DNA of 64,000 nt. It comes from Legionella tucsonensis (GTDB lineage: Bacteria; Pseudomonadota; Gammaproteobacteria; Legionellales; Legionellaceae). Each line of letters opens with the position of its first letter. Within the stretch, counting starts at the first letter, position 1. The DNA lies in contig NZ_LNZA01000001.1 in the NCBI RefSeq assembly GCF_001468035.1, positions 765,020 through 829,019 of the forward strand. Reading direction: 5' to 3'. The notes under the pieces are model-generated. The model searched no databases. It was given only the letters and a program-made list of their open reading frames with translations, and was not told the origin of the DNA. The position numbers and the translations under genes were made by a program. Positions 24,513 to 25,959 of the stretch are shown here, piece after piece.

Positions 24513-25959
24513 ACCTTTATTGAGCACCGAGTGGTTTTCTCGCCTAAGTCATTTTAATAAATTAATTATAGGTTTTAGTGGTGGACTTGACTCAACAGTT
24601 CTTTTGCATGTCCTTGCCTCCCACCACACCTTGCTTGCTAAATTAATCGCAGTGCATGTAAATCATGGGATTAGCGCGAATGCCTCTCGTTGGCAATTAC
24701 ATTGCCAACAGTTTTGTCAGAATTTAGGTATTCCTTTAATTACCCAGTCTGTGCAATTTGATTGTTCAGCCAATATTGAAGAGAGAGCACGTATTGCCCG
24801 GTATGCAGTTTTTTCTTCTTTGCTTACAGAACGGGACTGCTTGATTTTAGGGCATCATTTAAACGATCAAGCAGAAACAGTTCTATTGCAACTATTTCGA
24901 GGTTCTGGTGTGGATGGTTTGGCTGCTATGCCCGATTTTGGCCAATTGGAACCGGGAAAAATTGCCAGGCCTTTTTTAACTCATTCCCGAGAGCAATTAG
25001 AACATTACGCTGTCATTCATCAATTGAGCTGGATAGAAGATGAGAGCAATCAGGATATCAACTATTCGCGAAATTATTTACGCCAACACATTATGCCTTT
25101 ACTGAAAAGAAAATGGCCTGGGGTTGCGGGTAATATCGCAAGAACAGCACTTCATTGCCAACAGGCGAAAAGAAACCTGGATATGTTGGCAGTTCAAGAT
25201 GTGACATTGGAAAACCTTGAAAAATTAACAAACAATTCTTTATTGATTACACCATTAAAAGCACTTAGTCGAGATCGTATAGCAAATGTGCTCAGAGTCT
25301 GGTTGAAAAACAATCAAATCCAATTGCCCTCAACTGTGACATTTTGGCGTTTGATTGATGAAGTGATCTTTGCTAGTCCAGATGCAACTCCGGTAGTGAG
25401 TTGGGGCGAGGTAACTGTGCGTCGTTATCAAAAGCACTTATATTTAGATAAAAAAAATGCAAATAATTTCCCATTTTGCACTAGACCTCTAGCCAAACTT
25501 GCTGCAGAGCGAGAGGTGTGTGGAGGCATGGAGCGTAGAATCGAGGTGCAAACGAAGTCACATGAGTATCCGAGATCTGTATCGACGAAGCAGGTCTTTT
25601 CTTCAGTAGAGTTTCGAACGAGGTCTATTGAGTGGTCTACATTTCCTTTGCCCTTAGTAATTCCTGATGCAAACGTTAATTTATTGACACAAAAAGCCAA
25701 TCAGGGGTTAATTATTCCTGCTAATTCAAAAATATTTGTCCGATTTAGACAAGGTGGAGAAGAGTTTTTTTTGAATGGACAGACTAAACGTTTAAAAAAA
25801 TTGTTCCAAGAATGGGGGGTTCCTCCTTGGTTAAGAGAGCGAGTTCCTTTGATTTATTTCAATGATAAACTCGCAGCCGTAGTTGGTTATGCAATGAGTG
25901 ATTTATTTTTTACTAAAGAATGTCCTGATGCTTGGGTTTTTGTTAATTGTTCCTTTTAA
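24505..25959 (+). CDS. tilS: tRNA(Ile)-lysidine synthase with an in-frame repeat insertion
   Basis: It modifies the wobble cytidine of tRNA-Ile(CAU) to lysidine. The PP-loop SGGLDSTVLLHVLA (about residues 25-38) and HHLNDQAETVLLQLFRGSG are intact, as are the middle domain and the C-terminal FVRFRQGGEEF domain ending WVFVNC. At 484 residues it is some 50 longer than usual. The excess corresponds to residues about 326-375 encoded by a dispersed repeat (25482-25627), placed in the linker before the C-terminal domain, without frame loss. The start is GTG, with GGGAG just upstream, overlapping accA. Confidence 0.93.
   Translation: MIKPLLSTEWFSRLSHFNKLIIGFSGGLDSTVLLHVLASHHTLLAKLIAVHVNHGISANASRWQLHCQQFCQNLGIPLITQSVQFDCSANIEERARIARYAVFSSLLTERDCLILGHHLNDQAETVLLQLFRGSGVDGLAAMPDFGQLEPGKIARPFLTHSREQLEHYAVIHQLSWIEDESNQDINYSRNYLRQHIMPLLKRKWPGVAGNIARTALHCQQAKRNLDMLAVQDVTLENLEKLTNNSLLITPLKALSRDRIANVLRVWLKNNQIQLPSTVTFWRLIDEVIFASPDATPVVSWGEVTVRRYQKHLYLDKKNANNFPFCTRPLAKLAAEREVCGGMERRIEVQTKSHEYPRSVSTKQVFSSVEFRTRSIEWSTFPLPLVIPDANVNLLTQKANQGLIIPANSKIFVRFRQGGEEFFLNGQTKRLKKLFQEWGVPPWLRERVPLIYFNDKLAAVVGYAMSDLFFTKECPDAWVFVNCSF
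25482..25627 (+). repeat. 146-bp dispersed repeat inserted in frame in tilS
   Basis: Bounded by TAGACCTC (25482-25489) and GAGGTCTA (25620-25627), perfect 8-bp inverted ends. It is collinear with the reverse complement of 18472-18616. It encodes about 49 residues starting RPLAKLAAEREVCGG and ending VEFRTRSIE, with Arg/Ser-rich composition unlike the rest of TilS. This resembles the way Rickettsia palindromic elements sit inside genes. Confidence 0.8.

Follow-up and report, generated by a model that had tools for sequence, protein, structure and literature searches.

An RPE1-type palindromic element read in frame within tilS of Legionella tucsonensis and a candidate IS5-family mover

The tilS gene and its inserted element

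We analysed 64,000 nucleotides of the Legionella tucsonensis genome (assembly GCF_001468035.1, contig NZ_LNZA01000001.1, positions 765,020 to 829,019; this whole stretch is referred to as the window), in which tilS carries a short palindromic repeat, read in frame, of the type named Rickettsia palindromic element 1 (RPE1). Copies were searched with a sequence-only DNA model, R1, built from 34 oriented copies of 18 genomes, all from Legionella. The features concerned are the following.

24505..25959, + strand: tilS, tRNA(Ile)-lysidine synthetase, the insertion host, 484 amino acids, with Pfam domains
25483..25626, + strand: core of the RPE1-type element, AGACC...GGTCT, 144 bp, equal to TilS residues 327-374 in frame
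25480..25482: left 3-bp target duplication, ACT (from the sequence and the A-N-T rule of 143 copies)
25627..25629: right 3-bp target duplication, ATT (from the sequence and the single ATT at the empty site of G019, described below)
18476..18616, - strand: second element copy, between two larger open reading frames (ORFs) (model R1, 88.1 bits, E 1.6e-26)

The copy in tilS was matched by model R1 with 105.7 bits (E 5.3e-32), and the scan of the window gave these two copies. The Pfam domains of TilS are ATP_bind_3 (19-194), TilS (248-313) and TilS_C (411-477), and the element lies in frame in the linker before the C-terminal domain, where the original prediction had placed it from the sequence alone. 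The perfect inverted ends TAGACCTC/GAGGTCTA are present at 25482/25627. The predicted extent of 146 bp holds for a real element, but the mobile core is 144 bp (25483-25626), and the outer T and A belong to the target duplication, of which the right ATT differs from the left ACT by a decayed middle base. The net gain of tilS is 147 bp or 49 codons (the core with 48 codons, and the 3-bp duplication), which is exactly the excess that had been estimated at about 50 residues. The description of the inserted peptide as Arg/Ser-rich is fair (7 Arg and 6 Ser in 48 residues, counted by eye), except that Glu equals Ser in frequency. A stable structural RNA was considered for the tilS copy and rejected, as its folding was not better than that of shuffles (z -0.70 and 0.42); Rfam 15 gave no match at gathering score in five loci (L001-L005).

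The consensus of the element is 146 bp long, TAGACCTCTTTCCAAACTC...GAGTTTCGAAAGAGGTCTA, and its outer T and A were read from the flanks as part of a 3-bp duplication A-N-T. A total of 172 distinct hits were reduced to 161 that are near full length with flank, and to 143 under a stricter end rule. Among the latter Legionella copies the middle base of A-N-T is the same on both sides in 119, against 60.4 expected if the two sides were independent, and the whole triplet is identical in 75. The palindromic arms are paired in 93.1% of cells, with double-sided changes in 19 of 35 pairs. This covariation extends beyond the ends, with 102 double-changed cells against 34.1 in shuffles, none of 500 shuffles being as high, and is destroyed by sliding the partners; since the structure itself came out of this alignment, the comparison leans somewhat towards covariation. 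We read it over the family as upkeep of the palindrome.

TilS was surveyed in 45 Legionella genomes; 44 proteins were aligned, and the TilS of G043, which was not extracted, was judged from search hits. At residue 327 (site A) the full element is present in four (L. tucsonensis itself, L. anisa, L. bozemanae and L. parisiensis), short inserts, about 12-13 residues long and perhaps remnants of the element, are present in two (G008 and G035), and the site is empty in 39 (38 by alignment, G043 by search hits). A clean empty site was found in the close relative Legionella sp. PC1000 (G019), which reads TGT-ATT-GAG versus TGC-ACT-core-ATT-GAG in the window. One could take the segment for an ancient native portion of the Legionella protein that other lineages have lost, as four species have it at one place. 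However, 39 of the 45 TilS are without it, the segment is one copy of a dispersed repeat and is flanked by a target duplication, and Escherichia coli TilS (1ni5) aligns on either side of site A but shows no counterpart between its chain residues 312 and 321. The empty sites and repeat copies rule out a native segment, to which we assign practically no probability. An ancestral segment in all Legionella TilS, or an element without further copies, would have refuted the original prediction, and neither was found.

G019 is grouped with L. anisa in the tree of tilS at an ultrafast bootstrap of 100, and its empty site is therefore nested among filled ones. Site A is most simply explained by a single insertion, which would have taken place in the common ancestor of the four species that carry the full element, and by a single precise loss, or a replacement through recombination, in Legionella sp. 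PC1000.

The pN/pS ratio is 0.62 in the site A insert versus 0.20 in the rest of tilS. Recruitment of the insert for a function in TilS would agree with a pN/pS below 1 and with a frame that stays open across the four species, with no frameshift and length changes of 3 nt only. It is set against the ratio in the rest of the gene, against the close relative G019, which lives without the insert, and against another TilS linker (site B, residue 233), where a separate second insertion has brought a full element into three other genomes (G005, G025 and G033; pN/pS 0.58 versus 0.27 in the rest) and where the element is apparently reduced in two more (G040 and G041). We regard recruitment as improbable. 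Sites A and B both lie between Pfam domains of TilS. At site A the insert would form linker sequence that joins the middle domain to the C-terminal one and is subject to relaxed constraint.

Two side observations concern the same gene. Unrelated-looking inserts were seen at site B in four TilS (L082, L083, L084 and L085), and this linker therefore seems tolerant of varied inserts; the site B inserts of G006, G011, G021 and G022 are not counted here as copies of the element. Moreover, among the tilS loci of G005, G025 and G033 (L042, L077 and L081), at least those of G005 and G025 have a further copy in opposite orientation that meets the start of the gene at its 5' end; the upstream frame stays open and may be translated.

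Copies in Legionella genomes and their reading frame

The repeat is dispersed, as had been predicted. The own genome has 27 matches to model R1, and BLAST gave 13 matches there besides the tilS copy; at least one R1 match is present in 30 of the 45 Legionella genomes and none in 15, with 70 in G008, which is the number scored. Across the order at least one match at E<=1e-4 was obtained in 51 of 143 genomes, all of them in the same family among the matches listed. As for carriers, plasmids gave no tblastn match with one element peptide, and 21 pattern matches on viral contigs yielded no confirmed copy. Of 150 listed R1 matches, 101 had no locus with sufficient flank, and 100 of the latter were retrieved.

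Among the 161 near-full-length hits, 34 span an open frame that extends for 50 codons or more on either side; these 34 represent 33 copies, as L159 was counted in both orientations. Frame (+,1) of the element, predicted to code for a hydrophilic peptide, is used by 29 of the 34, although the reverse strand also offers two open frames, in 94 and 57 copies. After grouping by hand (three sites of one G004 gene kept apart, two ComEC rows taken as one, and the array of L097, L183 and L203 excluded), frame (+,1) is used in 13 of 14 insertions, a bias with P 1.4e-5 on the assumption that the use of frames is proportional to their openness; the one insertion not using it is in a fatty acyl-AMP ligase/reductase. 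Pfam named the host for most of the cases scanned, and the others are polyketide synthases (PKS), a nonribosomal peptide synthetase, ComEC, BirA, CheW, a rhodanese protein and TilS. Several inserts lie between domains, as in BirA (element 130-174, helix-turn-helix 28-79, ligase 174-280); CheW has its Pfam match on both sides of the element, so not every insert is interdomain. With 158 copies having flanks for a shift control, an open frame is spanned by 34, versus 96 and 95 of 158 when the positions are displaced by 400 bp. The element is thus rarer in open frames than at shifted positions, and therefore many coding insertions have probably been lost.

Two further arrangements were noticed. 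Head-to-tail arrays of the element, with a spacing of about 138 bp, occur inside an open frame read in another frame (L097, L183 and L203). In a small conserved protein the element is apparently at one place in several genomes (L109, L110, L128, L129, L102, L104, L106, L107 and L247); seven of these nine rows were scanned and gave no Pfam match.

Kinship with RPE1 of Rickettsia

The likeness to Rickettsia palindromic elements noted in the original prediction is homology with RPE1, a stronger relation than was claimed. The RPE1 hidden Markov model (HMM) TIGR01045 passes its curated cut-off of 30 bits in 13 of the 45 Legionella genomes and gives E<=1e-3 in 20, and several matches cover positions 1-48 and agree with the element in frame and ends. 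None of 14 control genomes matched, and in a phylum sample, which may hold no Rickettsia, the one matching genome of 398 was the own one.

A contig scan with 13 element peptides gave 65 loci, 57 in Legionella and the others in alphaproteobacteria, namely Rickettsia tamurae (56% identity over 48 residues), Candidatus Rickettsia kotlanii, a Holosporales metagenome-assembled genome (MAG; four loci) and Alphaproteobacteria PG1894_49 (two loci); the peptide alignment A3 comprises 13 of 15 intended rows, without L055, which has a stop in frame, and L067. The Legionella-only model R1, at E<=0.01, found 55 matches in R. tamurae, 43 in Ca. R. kotlanii, 91 in the Holosporales MAG and 21 in PG1894_49. 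Its E values go down to 2.6e-25 in Rickettsia, and among the matches listed many extend over 1-146 and most, PG1894_49 excepted, are near full length. Of 48 full-length copies from alphaproteobacteria, 39 have the same middle base of A-N-T on both sides, where 17.5 were expected, and 21 have the same triplet. Most of the ends are closely similar.

A total of 56 alphaproteobacterial copies were read and 44 placed in a tree. They are a non-random part of the 210 matches, composed of better-scoring rows and of some from the peptide search, which favours open frames, and with this composition open frames are spanned by 9 of 26 copies in Rickettsia (8 in frame (+,1)), 15 of 20 in Holosporales (14 in (+,1)) and 2 of 2 in PG1894_49. 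Hosts in the Holosporales MAG include LigA and a radical-SAM HemN-like protein, with two elements each, as well as acetyl-CoA synthetase and a transketolase-like protein; those in R. tamurae include a Mur ligase and an M20 peptidase. For three of these hosts (LigA, Mur ligase and M20 peptidase) the element falls inside a domain match. The Holosporales MAG (Gx481_bin27, G444; L301, L312, L346 and L353) has its 91 matches in about 1.0 Mb.

In the tree the 44 alphaproteobacterial copies form one group apart from 131 Legionella copies. This separation would agree with an independent origin of an RPE1-like element in Legionella. Against such convergence stand the reach of a DNA model made from Legionella copies only, the terminal repeats, target rule, length and frame that are all the same, and the HMM matches over 1-48 in that frame; we hold it to be very improbable. 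Legionella and alphaproteobacterial copies are one family, with no recent exchange seen.

A candidate IS5-family mover and comparison with known systems

Insertion sequences (IS) of the IS5 family were found in Legionella relatives through a search for the end motif. One of them (L127, in G027) is 914 bp long, has matching ends on both sides, and encodes HTH_Tnp_4 and DDE_Tnp_4 in two ORFs assigned by NCBIfam to IS5 (NF033581). A second, found with orfA of L127 (L141, in L. anisa), has 1053 bp, TAGACCTCTTTCCAAACC at both ends and AAT on either side, and is the one IS with the same A-N-T target duplication. Each of the eight stretches fetched from G039 has a single end of this kind together with the beginning of a similar ORF, and then runs into the contig break. 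Terminal repeats are therefore shared with the autonomous element at both ends in L127 and L141 and at one end in the G039 contigs. These IS differ from the element in their transposase ORFs and length, the element having no transposase gene. A-N-T is also the target rule of the ISL2 group. HTH_Tnp_4 has one match in PG1894_49, and the own genome has five Pfam DDE_Tnp_1 matches. As a side observation, three R. tamurae copies (L368, L369 and L377) have ends near TAGACCTCTTGCATAAC, resembling the left end next to an orfA of IS5 type in G012 (L140), and may represent a sister element.

Based upon these data, the segment in tilS is probably a miniature inverted-repeat transposable element (MITE) of the RPE1 family, moved in trans by an IS5-family (ISL2-like) transposase and tolerated as an in-frame peptide; a Legionella transposon with the same ends may explain its movement. 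The transposase would recognise the AGACC...GGTCT ends in trans and insert the element into an A-N-T target with duplication of 3 bp. The 144-bp core and 3 bp would add 49 codons, and the frame would survive wherever the element's own frame is open. Insertions with frame (+,1) in register at a tolerant place, such as an interdomain linker or an in-domain loop, would then persist, presumably translated and harmless to the host.

Several results weigh against this explanation. No transposition was observed. The duplication of L127 was not confirmed, as its right flank is one base that does not fit the left. Near-complete orfA is present in 4 of the 45 Legionella genomes, with fragments or contig-cut pieces in 6 more. 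Twelve loci were scanned for ends, and both were found in two (L127 and L141), one in three and none in seven, including a near-complete IS5 copy of G021. HTH_Tnp_4 was not found in R. tamurae, Ca. R. kotlanii or the Holosporales MAG. On the side of RPE1, the window's own TilS gives no RPE1 match and its ortholog in G017 scores 29.3, while an NCBIfam scan of 10 element-carrying proteins returned RPE1, among the matches listed, for one only, a PKS with 28.0 bits, below the cut-off of 30. The best identity between Legionella and alphaproteobacterial copies is 79.5%, and the tree separation and the scarcity of copies in open frames described above point the same way. We lowered the probability of the explanation slightly because the IS evidence consists of two complete elements.

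Alternatively, the element could be mobilised in a different way, through hairpin or single-strand transposition or through recombination, with the IS5 elements merely sharing its ends. The covariation of the arms well beyond the ends, from a structure taken from the same alignment, would fit such a route, as would the failure to find the transposase in the Rickettsia and Holosporales genomes examined. Yet a short target duplication of fixed length is typical of DDE transposases, and one IS (L141) has the same duplication and ends; we find another route unlikely. Beyond movement by an IS5-family transposase, we lean, with some reserve, towards a wider view of RPE1 as a translation-tolerant IS5-family MITE that would have spread among bacteria inside eukaryotic cells (Legionellaceae, Holosporales and Rickettsia), with its autonomous form still in Legionellaceae, and with its length, duplication and one hydrophilic frame shaped for hiding in genes as a stretch of peptide, in a single essential gene even twice.

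RPE1 was reportedly described in Rickettsia in 2000, and we know of no established source or way of moving of these elements. They are the best-known selfish DNA inside proteins, described from Rickettsia, and the same family is now found in another bacterial class, several members of which grow in culture. The target rule and the candidate transposase in Legionella make the origin and movement of RPE1 directly testable. RPE1 in Legionella also illustrates how essential enzymes can gain peptide segments from short elements, and it explains some odd extra segments of Legionella proteins. In the literature surveyed, which did not cover the founding RPE papers, titles and abstracts contained neither RPE1 in Legionella nor a tie of RPE1 to IS5, and the available portions of PMC9779031, PMC7519539, PMC2653234, PMC4316617, PMC2635572 and PMC3218107 gave no such link. 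Automatic annotation may already label such Legionella proteins. The accessible text of a 2024 MITE review states that in-frame fusion occurs with unusual frequency in Rickettsia and regards a similar process in other organisms as conceivable (PMC10969869), and gene transfer between Legionella and Rickettsia is mentioned in general terms in the part seen of PMC4316617.

Among known systems, QMITE1 and QMITE2 of Coxiella, another intracellular gammaproteobacterium, are likewise short inverted-repeat elements that are sometimes in frame in ORFs according to the excerpts of PMC5896051, which also report no relatives of QMITE1 by BLASTn. They differ in length and in direct repeats, and the likeness is one of description, not of sequence. 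RPE-4/6/7 and the WPE of Rickettsia and Wolbachia resemble the present element in their in-frame insertion into genes, with a biotin ligase as host there and BirA here; in the sections of PMC3767692 at hand their origin is described as other than that of RPE-1 to 3, which are treated as separate, and this likeness is again by description, not by sequence. RPE1 of Rickettsia (TIGR01045) agrees with the Legionella element in peptide, DNA, ends, target rule, 48-codon length and main frame in genes. In contrast, the Legionella element resides in Gammaproteobacteria, is accompanied there by an IS5 element with the same ends, and is mostly outside coding frames. RPE1 is thus not confined to Rickettsia as its name implies, being present also in Legionellaceae, the Holosporales MAG and PG1894_49.
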